Shown here piece by piece: positions 48,567 through 58,401 of a DNA stretch of 64,000 nucleotides. Made by a program: the position numbers and the translations under genes. This stretch comes from Candidatus Nitrosacidococcus sp. I8 (GTDB lineage Bacteria > Pseudomonadota > Gammaproteobacteria > Nitrosococcales > Nitrosococcaceae). The notes beneath the pieces were generated by a model. It made no database searches and was not told where the DNA came from. It saw nothing but the letters and a program-made list of their open reading frames with translations. The DNA is taken from the NCBI RefSeq assembly GCF_945836005.1, contig NZ_OX241534.1, positions 1,054,001 to 1,118,000 on the forward strand, in the 5' to 3' direction. How positions within the stretch are numbered: the stretch's first letter is position 1; each line of letters starts with the position of its first letter.

Positions 48567-49427
48567 CTAATGACACTGGCTACGAATCTCTTCAATCAGA
48601 TCAATCATTTTATTCTGACTAAATTGGGTTTTAAATTGAATATCAATGCTTTTGCCAAAAAACCTTCTCGCATGATCAATCTTGGCTTTTTCTACTGCTC
48701 TTAATTCTTCATCACTCTCTATCCCTTTGCTTTCAATAATAAAGTTAAGTTTTTTCTTGCCATCAGTATATTCAATCACATAAGCGAAATCAGGAGAATA
48801 AGTAGTACCGCCAGCCACTGGAATTCTGATTGAATTCTTAGGAATTTTGGTAAACACAATCACCTCTTTGATATGAGCTTGAATATTCTCTTTTTCTAGC
48901 TCGGAATCGTAGTACAACTCTTCAAAAAAATAATTGTCTGCCACGGCTTCATCCTCACAGCATATGCCAATATCTGCTCCATTGATTTCTTTTAGCACAT
49001 TACCTTGGCAATCCGTCAATTTAGTCGGATGAATTTGATTGGAGATTTGCTGATAATCAATACTAAACTTGTCGATGGCATGAGTCATCAGATAAGTATT
49101 AAACTGCCCCTTAATCGCTCGTAAGGTGGTGGCATTTAAATATTGATTGATATTTAACTCTGCCATGGCTTCCCCCATAGCTTGATGCAAGGTGATTCTA
49201 TTGATACTCAAAGACGTTGCTAGCTGAGTTAAAAACTGGCTATAGCTCAGGGTGGTTATTTTGGTAGCATGCCCATCGCTTACGGATTCAATAGGATGAC
49301 TACTCGCTTGATTATTTTTAACCTCAATCTTTGCTTGGCGTATTTTCAGATAATCCTCTTTAAGCTGTTTTTCTAAACCATCGCTTTTAAAAAAAACTAA
49401 TAAGCAATGCCTTAAATTCCGCTTCAT
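48567..49427 (-). pseudogene. Type III restriction enzyme Res, C-terminal nuclease part (separated by frameshift)
   Basis: This frame carries the C-terminal 286 codons of the res gene, including the endonuclease-like region (PVAGGTTYSPDFAYVIEYTD, then LNFIIESKGIESDEELRAVE: a PD...ESK pattern). Its apparent start overlaps the end of the preceding frame. The join is a run of eight T on the minus strand (49389-49396): with seven T the two frames fuse as FKALLISFFKSDGLEKQLKE. So it is not a separate gene. Confidence 0.8.
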
Positions 49428-51462
49428 TCTTAAATTGATACTCTAGAATCACTTTCTCATTGAGTTTTTCCCACAGGGTTTTAAGTTCATGATAGCGTTC
49501 AGTACGCACCGTAATTTTATTTGCTTTTTTATCACTACGCTTAACTACGCCTTCTTTTAGTTTTTGGAAAATATCGGGATAAAGCGTTTTAAGTTTTTCA
49601 AAGCCATCTACTTTAAAAGTTTTGTTAAACTCAATGATCTGATCTTCTTCAATAAGCTGCTTGAGTAACTGATTTTCATCATGAGCAAATTGACTATAAC
49701 CTCCCAATAAAGCTTTGATCATCCCATTGGTTAATTTTTCTGGTGGTGTATTTTCTATCCCCGATTGCTCATTGATTTCATTCACTAACTGATCAATAAA
49801 TTCACTCTCTGAAAAATCTACAAAATAATTTAAATAAAATTGTTCTTCTTTAACCCGATTGCCATATTCATTGACAGGTAGGCGTAACCCTCGCCCTACT
49901 TCTTGTAGTTTTGATATTTCACTGCCACTACTGCGTAATTTGCAAATCTGAAATACATTGGGATTATCCCAACCCTCACGCAAAGTCCATTTTGAAAAAA
50001 TAAATCGCCTTGGATTATTTAGATCCAATAGTGCTTGTTTATCATGAAGGATTTCATTGACTTCCTGTGCAATGTCTTCATCTTTTTCTGCGTTGTCCTT
50101 TGAAAAATATCCTCCATGGGTTTGGGATAAATCCTCTAAAGTTCGTTCAAGATATTCCCGATACCGCAAATCCTGCTCTGTTGCTAATAATGTTTTGACT
50201 TCAGATTGCACGCACTGCTCTAGGGTTTTGCTTAAATAACCCTCCTCATTACGGTATTCTTCTATCTGATCAATAAAAAATAAGGTGAGTGGTTTAATCC
50301 GTATCTCACGAGTCAGGAGCTGTTTTTCTAACTGAAAATGCTCATGGACTGCGGTTTGTATCATTTTTTCTTGTACTGTTTGCGCATAAGAATAAGGATT
50401 GATCTTATTTCCCCGTTCTAGCTCCAACCCATTGGAAAGCACTACTACAGTTTTATTTAACCCTTCTATAGTTAAGCCCGTCATAGCAGGATGAATCCGG
50501 CTTAAAGACTCCCATTTAGTTAATTTGACAGATTGATGAGATTTACCTTCCGTAAGCTTAAAACTTGCTTCACGCCCATCAGTACTGACTAGCTTTACTA
50601 AAGCATTTTTACCTGCGTCAAACTCGGCAATATAACCATTAATCCCTTTCACCAACCCACGATTAAAGGATTCAATGGCAGTGAGGCGATAAACTAGGTT
50701 TTCATGTTTTTTAAAAGTCGCTCCATAGCGTAAAACAAACTGGGGTCTTATTTTTTGAATATTCTCCCATGTTTTTTTATCCTGATTAAACTTGTGGGGT
50801 TCATCAATAATCATAAAAGCGTTAGTGGCTGCCAAGGCTTCCATGGGCGTGTTATAGCGATCAAATAAGGTTTTATCAAACGACCGTGTCATGGTCTCGG
50901 AATTAATCATTCCAGAGTTAATCACTAATACCTGAATATGATTTTTATCAAAATTACCTGCCTCTACAAAATGACTAGCCGCTAGAGGAAAACTAGGCTT
51001 TTTACGCTTCTTTTGGTTTTGGCTCTCTACACTATGTAACTCAAGGGTTTTTTGATATTGATGATGAAAATGACGGCGACAACTCTCGGATTTTAAAAAA
51101 CTAATGGTTCCTGCCTTGATGGGTAAGGTAGGTACCACCACAATAAATTTAAAAATTCCATAGGCTTTATTGAGTTCAAAAATAGTTTTGGTGTAAGTAT
51201 AGGTTTTCCCTGTGCCAGTTTCCATCATCACATCAATGATAGAACCATCTTTTTTTATCTCCTCGATAATCCCAAAGCTTTGTTGAATCTTACGGATATT
51301 GTCATAATAAATAGGTTGATTTTGATATTGAAATACAGGATTAATACCATCGCTTTATACTCCTGATATTTTTTCTATAGGCAGATCGGCAAATACGCCA
51401 ACCACACTTTCCACTGCCTTGGTTTGATGATCAAGATCATTTTCAAAGTTAAACTCTGCCAT
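49387..51462 (-). pseudogene. Type III restriction enzyme Res, helicase part (in-frame stop and frameshift)
   Basis: Res subunits combine a superfamily II translocase with a nuclease and cut DNA only together with Mod. The frame begins at ATG 51460-51462 (MAEFNFENDLDHQTKAVESV), has TAA at 51355-51357 and continues in the same frame SDGINPVFQYQNQPIYYDNI up to Walker A MMETGTGKTYTYTK, DEAH-like IDEPHKFNQD, and SKWTLREGWDNPNVFQICKL (motif V) with EVGRGLRLPV (motif VI). It ends in TAA at 49387 because of a T8 run; the nuclease part follows in another frame. Two independent lesions make restriction activity unlikely. It lies 3 bp after mod. Confidence 0.85.
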
Positions 51463-51465
51463 GGC

Positions 51466-53439
51466 TTAATACCTAATTTCTAGCTTAATCTGGCTAAGTT
51501 TTTTATTATTCTCTGGCTTTAAACTCTCTGCCAGCTCACGCAAACTTTTACTATCAAAATAATAACCAAAACACACCACCACAGTAGGACTAAATTCCCT
51601 ATCCCCATCCATGGTTTGTAATAGGCTAATTAGATGATAGGTAGTAAATCCTTGATTCATAAGATAGAGATAATTCCCCCCAGTATGGCTCCCATAATAA
51701 GCATCATAGCCTGCTAAATCTTTAGCAATTAAGGCTTGAGTAAGCAGAAACCCATCATAGGTTTTCCAAGTGGTGAGCAAAGTTTGCATATCTTCAGGGG
51801 TAAGGGTACTGTGATTAAATAGCTGATACTGCTCCTGCTCCTCTGCTTCTTGATGATAATTTTCCCAAATAGGGGTAGTTTCAAATACTTTAAAGCCTAG
51901 ATCCCCTGTATATTCTGGTTTTTCTTTCTTAATTTTATTACCAGCTCGAATCAGCCGTTCTTTGGTAATCTCAAAAATAGTAGGATTTTTTACTCCTAGC
52001 TCATCCTTCACAAAATCATAAGCAGTTTTATTTTTCTTGGGATCAATAGCTTCATTTAGCTGCACCAGAATATATTTTCTGTTTCCCCCATCTTCTGCAT
52101 TGAGTTGCATTACTGCATCCCCAGTCGTGCCAGAACCAGCAAAGAAATCGAGGATTATGTCATCCTCCTGTGTATTACCAATTTGTAATAAGCACTTAAT
52201 TAATACTGTTGGTTTTGGAAAATTAAATACCTTAATAAGGGTATCAAACAATGTCCCTACTTCTTCACTTCCACGTGCTGTGTTTTTAGCGTAGTCGATC
52301 CAAGTAGAAAATTTTTTTGTATTGTATTCGCCTTCTAACGGTTGATATATCTTTTCATAAACTATATAAGTTCCAGACTCTTCATCTTTAAGAAATTCTA
52401 TATTCCCTTGTTGTATTTCATCTAACATTTTTTGTTTTTTCCACCTCCAACGTCCATCTTCTCCTTGTGGTAACATAGGATACACAGTTGCTCCATCTGG
52501 AGCAGAGATGGAATAGAATAGATTAGGTCTATCTAATCTACGGCTATTTGCTCCCCATTTTCTGGCAAGTTGAGTTTTATAGAATCTTTTTTTGCCACCG
52601 TCGTATTTTGGAAATTTTTCATCCTTCTTAATTTGTTCCCCAATAGTGAATCTACTTTTTGAATACATACAAATGTATTCATGTGCAACTATCAAAAATT
52701 TATTATCAGCTCCACCTCCTTTTCCTTTCCATGGAATTTGGGCAATACTGTTTTCTTCCCCAAATACATCATCCATGAGCATTTTGAGTTGAGCCACTTC
52801 ATTATCATCAATGGAGATAAAAATCACCCCATCTTCCCGAAGCAGTTGTTTGGCAATATAAAGCCGAGGGTACATAAATGTGAGCCATGCACTATGGCTA
52901 TTACTCTTACTTTGGGTAAAGTTTAGAATGCGTTTGGCTTGTTCCTCGTCAATATCTAATATTTTCTGTAATTCTTCAGCACGGTATTTCCGATTGTCCT
53001 GATAGACAAAGCCATCATTGCCTGTGTTATAGGGCGGATCAATGTAAATCATTTTCACCTGTTCATGGTATGCACCAACTAAGTGCTTTAATACCTCAAG
53101 GTTATCGCCTTTAATCAACAGATTTTGGGATTGAGTATGTTCCAGTTGATTGTTATGGAGGGTGTCTTCTTTTAATAAAGTGGTGGCAGGATCGGTGGCA
53201 AGTAATCGGGCATAATTCTTACCCAACCAACCCATAGAATAGCTTTCTTCAGATATGTCAATTTCTTGCCTACCTAGGGCTTGAGTGAATTTATCGAGTA
53301 AAAACTGACCGCTTTTATCAAAATATTGAGAAAAATGAGTTTGTAATAAATCCAGCTCACTAGGAATATGAATATTATGGGTAATAGAATTTTGGGTGAA
53401 TTTTGATAAAGACTCCACCCTAGCATCAATACTGCTCAT
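51466..53439 (-). CDS. Type III DNA methyltransferase Mod (N6-adenine)
   Basis: The 657-residue enzyme has the beta-class order: motif IV MIYIDPPYNTGNDGFVYQDN (about 131-150), then a target-recognition region, then SAM-binding motif I ILDFFAGSGTTGDAVMQLN (about 420-440). A DNA-binding N-terminus and a C-terminal domain follow the usual Mod layout. It has no frame damage. Because res downstream is broken, it probably acts as an orphan methyltransferase. The stop is 3 bp before the res start, the normal mod-res operon arrangement. Confidence 0.92.
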   Translation of the reverse strand: MSSIDARVESLSKFTQNSITHNIHIPSELDLLQTHFSQYFDKSGQFLLDKFTQALGRQEIDISEESYSMGWLGKNYARLLATDPATTLLKEDTLHNNQLEHTQSQNLLIKGDNLEVLKHLVGAYHEQVKMIYIDPPYNTGNDGFVYQDNRKYRAEELQKILDIDEEQAKRILNFTQSKSNSHSAWLTFMYPRLYIAKQLLREDGVIFISIDDNEVAQLKMLMDDVFGEENSIAQIPWKGKGGGADNKFLIVAHEYICMYSKSRFTIGEQIKKDEKFPKYDGGKKRFYKTQLARKWGANSRRLDRPNLFYSISAPDGATVYPMLPQGEDGRWRWKKQKMLDEIQQGNIEFLKDEESGTYIVYEKIYQPLEGEYNTKKFSTWIDYAKNTARGSEEVGTLFDTLIKVFNFPKPTVLIKCLLQIGNTQEDDIILDFFAGSGTTGDAVMQLNAEDGGNRKYILVQLNEAIDPKKNKTAYDFVKDELGVKNPTIFEITKERLIRAGNKIKKEKPEYTGDLGFKVFETTPIWENYHQEAEEQEQYQLFNHSTLTPEDMQTLLTTWKTYDGFLLTQALIAKDLAGYDAYYGSHTGGNYLYLMNQGFTTYHLISLLQTMDGDREFSPTVVVCFGYYFDSKSLRELAESLKPENNKKLSQIKLEIRY

Positions 53440-54305: not shown

Positions 54306-55424
54306 ATGAAACACCGTGCTTATAAATTCCGCTTTTACCCAACTGATGAACAAGCTAAATTGCTTGCTCAAACGTTCGGTTGCGTGCGGTTTGTCTATAA
54401 CACGATATTGCGTTGGCGCACTGATGAGTATTACCAAGGCAAAGCAAAAATAGGTTATATTCAAGCAAGTGCTAAACTCACTGAATTGAAAAAACAACCT
54501 GAATTTGCTTTTTTAAATGATGTGTCTTGCGTTCCCACTCAACAAGCCCTTAGACACCAACAAACAGCGTTTAAGAACTTCTTTGAGGGTCGCACCAAAT
54601 ATCCAACATTCAAAAAGAAAACTCATCGGCAATCGGCTGAATTTACCAAAAGTGCGTTCAAATACACGGACGGTAAAATATACATTGCCAAAAGCAAAGA
54701 ACCCCTTGATGTGCGTTGGTCTAGGCAACTGCCAAGTGAACCTAGCATTATTACTATTTCCAAAGACTGTGCAGGGCGGTATTTTGTATCGTGCCTGTGT
54801 GAATTTGAAAATCAAACCTTGCCAAAATCTGATACCAATATCGGTATCGACGTTGGTATTAAACACCTGTTTGTTACCGATAGTGGTATCAAAATCGATA
54901 ATCCTCGCCTGACAGCTCAATACGCCACCAAACTTGCCAAAGCCCAAAAAACCTTGAGCCGTAAAAAGCTCGGTTCGGCTAATCGTGCCAAAGCTAGATT
55001 GAAAGTGGCTCGTATTCACGCCAAAATCTCCGATTGTCGATTAGATAACTTACACAAGTTATCTCGCAAATTAGTAAACGAAAACCAAGTTATTTGTGTT
55101 GAATCGCTTCGTGTAAAAAACATGATTAAGCACCCCAAATTATCCAAAGCGATTGCTGATTGTAGTTGGGCTAACTTTTTGACCCAATTAAAATACAAGG
55201 CGGATTGGGCTGGACGAACAGTTGCCAAGATAGACCAGTTTTTCCCAAGTTCTAAACGCTGTTCTAATTGTGGTTTTACTTTACCTTTTTTAGCCCTTGA
55301 TACTCGCCATTGGGATTGCCCCGAATGCAAAACTACACATGATAGAGATATCAATGCTTCTAAAAACATACTAACCGCAGGACTTGCGGGGCTTGCCTTT
55401 GGAGAGAATGTAAGTCTTGTGTAG
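54306..55424 (+). CDS. tnpB: TnpB RNA-guided nuclease (OrfB)
   Basis: The 372-residue protein has the TnpB order: N-terminal helix-turn-helix MKHRAYKFRFYPTDEQAKLL, the RuvC-I Asp in NIGIDVGIKHLFVTDSG (about residue 182), RuvC-II Glu in VICVESLRVKNMIKH (about 266), zinc finger KRCSNCGFTLP...WDCPECKTTHD, and RuvC-III Asp in HDRDINASKNILTAG (about 346-348). All three acidic residues and four Cys are present, so it should be active as an omega-RNA-guided dsDNA nuclease. Length is normal. It lies divergent from the HicB-like gene. Confidence 0.92.
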   Translation: MKHRAYKFRFYPTDEQAKLLAQTFGCVRFVYNTILRWRTDEYYQGKAKIGYIQASAKLTELKKQPEFAFLNDVSCVPTQQALRHQQTAFKNFFEGRTKYPTFKKKTHRQSAEFTKSAFKYTDGKIYIAKSKEPLDVRWSRQLPSEPSIITISKDCAGRYFVSCLCEFENQTLPKSDTNIGIDVGIKHLFVTDSGIKIDNPRLTAQYATKLAKAQKTLSRKKLGSANRAKARLKVARIHAKISDCRLDNLHKLSRKLVNENQVICVESLRVKNMIKHPKLSKAIADCSWANFLTQLKYKADWAGRTVAKIDQFFPSSKRCSNCGFTLPFLALDTRHWDCPECKTTHDRDINASKNILTAGLAGLAFGENVSLV

Positions 55425-55613: not shown

Positions 55614-56522
55614 TTAATTTTGTGGATTGCTATCGCTTATAGCATTTAAGCGTTCTAGCAATTCATTTGCCACTTCTGGGGTAATAAGATTTTGTGACGT
55701 TGCTAATTCTCCAGTTAAATTATCTAGATCGGCTGAGTTGGCTTCGTCTTTTACTGAAGCGGTTTTAACCGAAGCAGTATTCAATGCAGATGGATTTAAG
55801 CTAACTCGATTAGCTAAAAACATTGAACCATTACTTAGAGATAGATTTGCCATTTCCTCTGCTGTAAGAGGCCCCTTAGAATTACTAATTATACCTATCA
55901 TTTCATTCAACCCTCTTAGAGTAGCTACAAAAAATTGAGTATCTGAATCACCAAGCATGCCAAGATAAAGATTCTCTACCCCTGGATAAGGTCCTATTAT
56001 TACCATTGATGTCCTTAATGTTCCAATATAAGTTCCAGCGACTATAGGTTCACCACCTTCTAAAGTGTCTTTCTTGGTAAGATTTACTAGACCTCCCGTG
56101 CTAACTAGAAGATTTGCAGGTGTGTACGTTGTTGACCAAAATCCAATTAAGGAATATACCTTGTTTGGCCCATAATTATAGTTAAACCGATGAATCCTAA
56201 TTCCATTCACAGATAAATTACTTGAGCTATCCCAACGGTAAACATCGGTGTCCACAGGGGTAGAGGAATGATCTGGATTGGTTTTCACCATTTGGACTTG
56301 AGCCGTGTCATTATTGAAAATTCCATTGCCACTAGTCCAGGTGCCATCTAACTTGAATTTAGAGACAAAAAGCATATTATTTTGGGACTCAATATTAATG
56401 CCACTAAATTGATCGGTGGCCTGATCGGCCACATACCAACCATTTTCTGGTGCAAGTTGAGCTTGAGCATTTATAGATAATCCGAGTAAAAAAATACTAG
56501 TGAGTAAGTTTAGTTTTTTCAT
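55614..56522 (-). CDS. Exported protein of unknown function (302 aa)
   Basis: The product has a signal peptide (LTSIFLLGLSINAQA) and a mature region beginning APENGWYVADQATDQFSGIN. It is rich in beta-prone sequence (NNMLFVSKFKLDGTWTSGNG; VYRWDSSSNLSVNGIRIHRF) and ends with a helical Ala/Asn/Asp-rich segment with the heptad-like TASVKTASVKDEAN. No domain recognised; the GWYVADQ...SG...IESQNN pattern resembles small exported proteins of methanotrophs and Chromatiales. It has a terminator just downstream. Confidence 0.65.
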   Translation of the reverse strand: MKKLNLLTSIFLLGLSINAQAQLAPENGWYVADQATDQFSGINIESQNNMLFVSKFKLDGTWTSGNGIFNNDTAQVQMVKTNPDHSSTPVDTDVYRWDSSSNLSVNGIRIHRFNYNYGPNKVYSLIGFWSTTYTPANLLVSTGGLVNLTKKDTLEGGEPIVAGTYIGTLRTSMVIIGPYPGVENLYLGMLGDSDTQFFVATLRGLNEMIGIISNSKGPLTAEEMANLSLSNGSMFLANRVSLNPSALNTASVKTASVKDEANSADLDNLTGELATSQNLITPEVANELLERLNAISDSNPQN

Positions 56523-56656: not shown

Positions 56657-56773
56657 TTACCTTTTACTTGCAATAATGGTATAGCCGACAAGGTCACTTA
56701 ACTCACCATTGGATATAGCATTTGCTGGTAAAGCGAAAAGTAATAGGAATGCACTAGAGATTATTCTCTTCAT
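56657..56773 (-). pseudogene. Remnant of a small exported protein (38 codons)
   Basis: The ATG at 56771-56773 opens a signal peptide (MKRIISSAFLLLFALPANA) and the start of a mature protein ISNGELSDLVGYTIIASKR, then TAA at 56657-56659. The following codons KSLSLQNGG stop again at TGA. A signal peptide followed by LVGYTII is typical of larger exported proteins, so this is probably a truncated gene and not a real peptide. Confidence 0.5.
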
Positions 56774-56811: not shown

Positions 56812-57372
56812 TTAAAAGCTACATTCTTTACCTAGAGTTTGGCGGACTAATTCAATGCCGGTGAGATCAAAGGTATCGGTGATGCCATTGCCTTGGACAA
56901 AGAGGTACTTACCTTTTTTCTGTTCAATTTGTTTGAACATATCTTCGGGCCAATAGTGGCTACGACCGCCCATTAATTCTCCTCGGTAGGCTTCCATATT
57001 GGTTTCCAGATTGAGAACCATTTTTTCAATGTTGCCACTGTCAATGCGGTAGTTAAAATCATGTTCCGTAACTAGTCTTTGTCTTATTTTAGAATCACCG
57101 GTGGTAGTATTTAATAATGCCCAGTAGTAATTGTTATGTTTCTCTCTAGTTTCCGTTTCGGTCTGTATCCAAGGTTGTTTTAAGCGGGTGTTCAGAACAA
57201 GATCATTATTTCTACAGCTGAAGAAAAATTGATATTGCTCATTGGCACTGACACCCCACACGGTGGCACCCATAATCCCTGCGGTGGGATGAGTGATAGG
57301 ATCTAGCACTTCCCAGCCATAGCTAGCACTACTGGCAAGAAGGTAGACGATACTGACTATTATTTTTTTCAT
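56812..57372 (-). CDS. Exported protein of unknown function (186 aa), phase-variable promoter candidate
   Basis: The product has a signal peptide (IVSIVYLLASSASYG) and a mature domain with WEVLDPITHPTAGIMGATVW, NNDLVLNTRLKQPWI, a central NYYWALLNTTTGDSKIRQRL and a single C-terminal Cys pair context (GKECSF with CRNNDLV). The layout, a small beta-rich protein with two Cys, resembles periplasmic VasI-like proteins but I do not claim homology. GAGGAAC lies before the ATG. A run of ten G separates its candidate -35 and -10 boxes. Confidence 0.65.
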   Translation of the reverse strand: MKKIIVSIVYLLASSASYGWEVLDPITHPTAGIMGATVWGVSANEQYQFFFSCRNNDLVLNTRLKQPWIQTETETREKHNNYYWALLNTTTGDSKIRQRLVTEHDFNYRIDSGNIEKMVLNLETNMEAYRGELMGGRSHYWPEDMFKQIEQKKGKYLFVQGNGITDTFDLTGIELVRQTLGKECSF

Positions 57373-57461
57373 TTTGCAGTTCCTCAGTATTGAGTAAATA
57401 TGGTTTATTACTTATGGTTATTGAAGCATTAGCTTTTTAATAAAAGCTAAAAAAAACTAGC

Positions 57462-57492
57462 ATTTTACCCCCCCCCCGATGATAAATAACAA
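57462..57492 (-). promoter_or_regulatory. Candidate promoter with a poly-G spacer
   Basis: Minus strand: TTGTTA (57492-57487), 19-bp spacer that includes ten G (57477-57468), TAAAAT (57467-57462). Initiation would lie about 83 nt before the ATG at 57372. A spacer of 19 is too long; loss of two G would give 17. The rest of 57373-57717 holds a small hairpin (agctttttaataaaagct, 57431-57448) and no gene. Confidence 0.5.
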
Positions 57493-57717: not shown

Positions 57718-58401
57718 ATGCCTGATCCCCAATATTCTAATTCTGCCATTCGTAGCTTTGTTCGTAGGGAAGGACGAATTACGGTTGCTCAAAAAAAAGC
57801 CTTAGAAGAATTATGGTCTAAGTATGGATTAACATTACAAAGTGATAGCTTAGAGTTAGCCAGTATTTTTCCTATCCAAACACCCATCGTGCTAGAAATT
57901 GGCTTTGGTAATGGGGATTCTTTAGCGAGGCAAGCCTTAGAGAATCCTGCAATCAATTTTCTTGGGGTAGAAGTCTATCGCCCGGGCATTGGTCATTTAC
58001 TCACCCAAATAGAATCTTTAGCTTTAACTAATTTGCAACTGATCAATGAAGATGGGGTTAAAGTGTTGACCAGCCTTGCTGATCAATCTTTAGCAGGGGT
58101 GCAGATTTTTTTTTCTGATCCTTGGCCCAAAAAACGCCATCACAAACGGCGATTAATTCAGCCTGCTTTTGTAGATTTACTCTGGCATAAAACAATACCT
58201 CAAGGTTGGGTGCATTTAGCTACAGATTGGGAAAATTATGCTATACACATGAATATGGTATTTGAACAATACGCAGGATTTTCTCCTTGCTTGCATGAAG
58301 AAATACCTAAACAAGCTCCTCAGCGACCGCTGACTAAGTTTGAGAATCGGGGGCAAAACTTAGGTCATGGTATCTGGGATTTGTGGTTTAGGCGAATTTA
58401 G
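57718..58401 (+). CDS. trmB: tRNA (guanine-N7-)-methyltransferase
   Basis: TrmB methylates G46 of the variable loop of tRNA. The 227-residue protein has the N-terminal IRSFVRREGRITVAQKKALE, SAM-binding VLEIGFGNGDSLARQALENP (about 58-77), the catalytic-loop FSDPWPKKRHHKRRLIQPAF and C-terminal RPLTKFENRGQNLGHGIWDL. Length is normal for gammaproteobacteria. It is monocistronic. Confidence 0.96.
   Translation: MPDPQYSNSAIRSFVRREGRITVAQKKALEELWSKYGLTLQSDSLELASIFPIQTPIVLEIGFGNGDSLARQALENPAINFLGVEVYRPGIGHLLTQIESLALTNLQLINEDGVKVLTSLADQSLAGVQIFFSDPWPKKRHHKRRLIQPAFVDLLWHKTIPQGWVHLATDWENYAIHMNMVFEQYAGFSPCLHEEIPKQAPQRPLTKFENRGQNLGHGIWDLWFRRI

Follow-up and report, generated by a model that had tools for sequence, protein, structure and literature searches.

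A run of ten G between promoter-like hexamers upstream of an exported-protein gene in Candidatus Nitrosacidococcus sp. I8: promoter switch or neutral repeat?

Is the longest G run in the genome of an ammonia-oxidizing bacterium a promoter switch, or a repeat whose length may vary without consequence? Simple-repeat phase variation is known mostly from host-associated bacteria. Nitrosacidococcus has been described as an acid-tolerant ammonia oxidiser with a genome of 1.8 Mb and 37% G+C, and the chromosome of strain RJ19 measures 1,811,369 bp (PMC8115276). For RJ19, which belongs to 'Ca. Nitrosacidococcus tergens', both stranded RNA-seq and PCR-free metagenomes are available (PMC13170337). The genome examined here is a single contig of 1,848,551 bases and encodes amoA or a close homologue (PF02461, E 1.6e-113). 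Positions below are those of the window, a stretch of 64,000 nucleotides of that contig with 37.1% G+C; numbers above 64,000 are positions on the contig.

The tract and its surroundings

The tract, ten C on the plus strand and ten G on the minus strand (57468-57477), lies in an intergenic region of 345 bp with 26.7% G+C. The layout is divergent, with a trmB-like tRNA methyltransferase gene (57718-58401, plus strand; PF02390, E 3.3e-51) on one side and the gene for a protein of 186 amino acids (56812-57372, minus strand) on the other. On the minus strand the G run is preceded by TTGTTA (57487-57492), a -35-like candidate hexamer agreeing with TTGACA at 4 of 6 positions, and directly followed by the -10-like candidate TAAAAT (57462-57467), which agrees with TATAAT at 5 of 6. 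The spacer between them is 19 bases and would be 17 with eight G, and the ATG of the 186-aa frame (57372) lies approximately 95 bp downstream of the tract. The initial annotation had described this arrangement, that is, ten C between the two hexamers, with the same spacer lengths and ahead of a gene for an exported protein, and it is borne out by the coordinates and by the signal-peptide-like start of the encoded protein, MKKIIVSIVYLLASSASYGWEV. An AT-rich hairpin, TTAGCTTTT / AAAAGCTAA, is found in the would-be leader (57431-57454, minus strand).

Several other roles for the tract were considered and rejected. An ATG frame of the minus strand, MIIRIFIFIINSACYLSSGGG, enters the G run and ends immediately behind it, but is only 21 codons long and shows no recognisable ribosome-binding site; on the plus strand the frame beside the tract is 9 codons long. 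The whole leader folds no better than shuffled sequences (z -1.0) and gave no credible match in Rfam, which argues against an RNA element, and neither an intrinsic terminator nor long repeats were found in the region.

The 186-aa protein appears to be specific to this lineage. It has no match in Pfam or NCBIfam, and no homologue was found in 58 relatives or by a scan of wider genome contigs; the closest relatives compared were five genomes, one of 2.0 Mb from another genus and four of 3.4-4.1 Mb from the same family. Within its own genome the protein belongs to a family of three paralogues, one at 462786-463319 with 48% identity and a weak third near 668115, and no G/C run of at least 8 was found near either of these two. 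A search of PDB profiles returned at best a hypothetical protein at E 0.04, and the predicted structure, built from two sequences, has a mean pLDDT of 48, too poor for a fold search. An orthologous intergenic region was not found in the genomes compared, in which trmB of the relatives is preceded by unrelated DNA; a trmB scan of wider genome contigs returned distant taxa only, and plasmid records gave no match.

Other genes for exported proteins lie nearby. A protein of 302 amino acids (55614-56522, minus strand) has three more homologues in the genome, two at 43-47% identity and one at 28%, and weak homologues in three related genomes, with no Pfam family above the cut-off. Between the two exported-protein genes a short frame (56660-56772, minus strand) has a clear signal peptide start (MKRIISSA...) and a stop after about 40 codons, and looks like the remnant of another such gene. 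A full-length TnpB of the IS200/IS605 type (54306-55424, plus strand; NF038281, E 6.7e-118) sits between the exported-protein genes and a type III restriction system, in which an intact mod gene (51466-53439) adjoins a res gene (48570-51354, minus strand) present as two overlapping frames, a ResIII/helicase part and an endonuclease part, split exactly at a run of eight T (49389-49396). Possible reasons for the split are a frameshift, phase variation or decay of res, and a miscounted homopolymer in the assembly.

Rarity of the tract and strength of the promoter match

Pattern searches of the complete genome returned ten G/C runs of at least 8: a single run of 10, two with exactly 9 bases and seven with exactly 8. 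Each was inspected in its sequence context, and nine lie inside open frames of at least 262 codons, so that the run of ten is the only intergenic one. Of the runs of 9, one (at 651306) encodes IPPPNV in what we take from the frame translation to be valyl-tRNA synthetase (valS), and the other (at 810931) FRGGD in a protein that by the same reading is presumably GlcE-like. For runs of at least 10, a first-order model derived from the window predicts genome-wide numbers of 1.3 in coding and approximately 0.07 in intergenic DNA, the intergenic value being slightly inflated because the tract itself was counted in the model. The model is rough and overpredicts coding runs of at least 8 (22 expected vs 9 observed), and the tract at its intergenic position is therefore mildly surprising, not astonishing.

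A phasome-like set of long G/C tracts, spread over multiple genes for surface or modification functions, was not seen in this genome, which has three tracts of at least 9. Two of these are inside valS and the GlcE-like gene, so that poly-G switching as a general feature of the genome is not indicated. Meningococcal genomes carry approximately 15 poly-G tracts each, and some commensal Neisseria carry 1-7 (PMC5953494). The published PhasomeIt screening rule asks for a poly-G/C tract of at least 9 within 200 bp of an ATG (PMC5953494), and by it the ten G about 95 bp before the start codon are long enough to be prone to slippage. The length cut-off is not specific in the present genome, however, because it also selects the runs inside valS and the GlcE-like gene.

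TTGTTA and TAAAAT together match the consensus at 9 of 12 positions, with a spacer of 19 bp, and no TG extension precedes TAAAAT. A spacer of this length is poor for sigma-70 promoters. On the minus strand of the 345-bp region there are three matches of 9/12 with spacers of 15-19, as against 2.4 expected from shuffles that preserve dinucleotide composition, and both strands have further promoter-like matches beside the tract. When a run of ten G was placed at random in sequence of the same dinucleotide make-up, it was enclosed by a pair matching at least 9/12 with a spacer of 16-21 in 8.5% of trials per strand, and with a spacer of 17-19 in 4.5% of trials. As the divergent layout makes both strands eligible, the framing of the tract by hexamers is not a rare coincidence. 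The candidate promoter spacer of the initial annotation thus stands as to its hexamers and their spacing; the match itself is weak and at chance level.

Neutral tract or promoter switch

On balance, and with confidence only about even, we regard the tract as most likely slippage-prone but neutral, and not as an evolved on/off switch. A single mutation-prone mononucleotide repeat would have grown in intergenic DNA that is AT-rich and under no coding constraint, and its length, to judge from the number of G alone, probably drifts by slippage. The pair TTGTTA/TAAAAT would then most likely be one promoter-like match among several that arose by chance or, alternatively, part of a weak promoter that has seen no selection for tract-dependent switching. 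This reading is favoured by the frequency of promoter-like matches, which equals that in shuffles, and by the ease with which a random run of ten G is framed as well as this one; by the counts of runs of 8, 9 and 10 (7, 2 and 1), which drop like a geometric tail; by the location of the two runs of 9, which indicates that long G runs are not gathered at switchable genes; and by the paralogues at 462786 and 668115, which lack a tract. The genes for MutS and MutL are present with open frames, which we also counted for the neutral reading. Mismatch repair is, however, compatible with contingency loci. Two points speak against neutrality. The tract is the longest run and the sole long intergenic one, with approximately 0.07 expected under the first-order model, and it lies where a spacer switch would be found, some 95 bp ahead of the gene for a lineage-specific exported protein and with an acceptable hexamer on either side.

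These last points are the ones that would be expected of a phase-variable promoter like that of porA or tp0126, in which slippage in the tract would set the spacer to 17 with eight G, 18 with nine and 19 with ten, so that the exported protein would be strongly expressed at eight or nine G and weakly at ten or more. We hold such a promoter to be a possibility of lesser weight, a chance repeat being somewhat more likely. The geometry of tract and hexamers fits it, no other long G run of the genome is intergenic, the product is exported and lineage-specific, the PhasomeIt rule is satisfied (PMC5953494), and the precedents porA and tp0126 are arranged alike, with a spacing of 17 best (PMC7864442). 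On the other hand, the hexamers match at chance level, the paralogues are without a tract, and the genome has no wider set of such tracts. Tract length might instead affect transcription of either divergent gene from upstream of, or inside, another promoter or a regulator site, as in opc or tprL; the promoter-like matches flanking the tract on both strands are consistent with this, but nothing points to any particular start site or regulator and we judge it improbable. It seems similarly improbable that the count of ten is in part an assembly error. The bases of a long homopolymer are difficult to count, and the res gene of the window is split at a run of eight T. A nanopore assembler was used for the one complete Nitrosacidococcus genome besides RJ19 for which a description was found, and which may be the present assembly; MiSeq reads were also made (PMC9574496). 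Apart from res, however, an overlap scan saw no homopolymer that breaks a frame of the window, which suggests a polished assembly.

If the tract were nevertheless a switch, simple-repeat phase variation would extend to an acid-tolerant nitrifier, and the exported protein would presumably be under fluctuating selection, for which phage or grazing can be offered as guesses. The mechanism is already well known, and what would be new is its host, an ammonia oxidiser; a limited literature search combining phase variation, homopolymers and ammonia-oxidizing bacteria found no paper. That a free-living gammaproteobacterial ammonia oxidiser switches a lineage-specific exported protein by slippage of the porA type is, in our estimate, rather unlikely, and at present the locus stands as one candidate tract.

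Comparison with known poly-G promoters

In porA and tp0126, slippage alters the spacing between -35 and -10, with the optimum at a total of 17 (PMC7864442). The present locus resembles porA of Neisseria meningitidis in having a G homopolymer in a promoter-like spacer before an exported-protein gene, where a change of two G reaches 17. In porA, however, the promoter, its start and length-dependent expression are established (PMC7864442), whereas the tract described here is known from sequence, in a free-living nitrifier. The likeness to tp0126 of Treponema pallidum lies in a poly-G run between -35 and -10 with an identical predicted optimum of 17; for the poly-G promoters of T. pallidum, variation in tract length within isolates and effects in reporters have been shown (PMC7864442), while the present tract is represented by a single assembly. 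The promoter region of opc in Neisseria, likewise that of an exported-protein gene, also contains a G/C homopolymer, a poly-C tract, but there the homopolymer extends over the -35 region (PMC7864442), whereas the ten G described here sit in the spacer.
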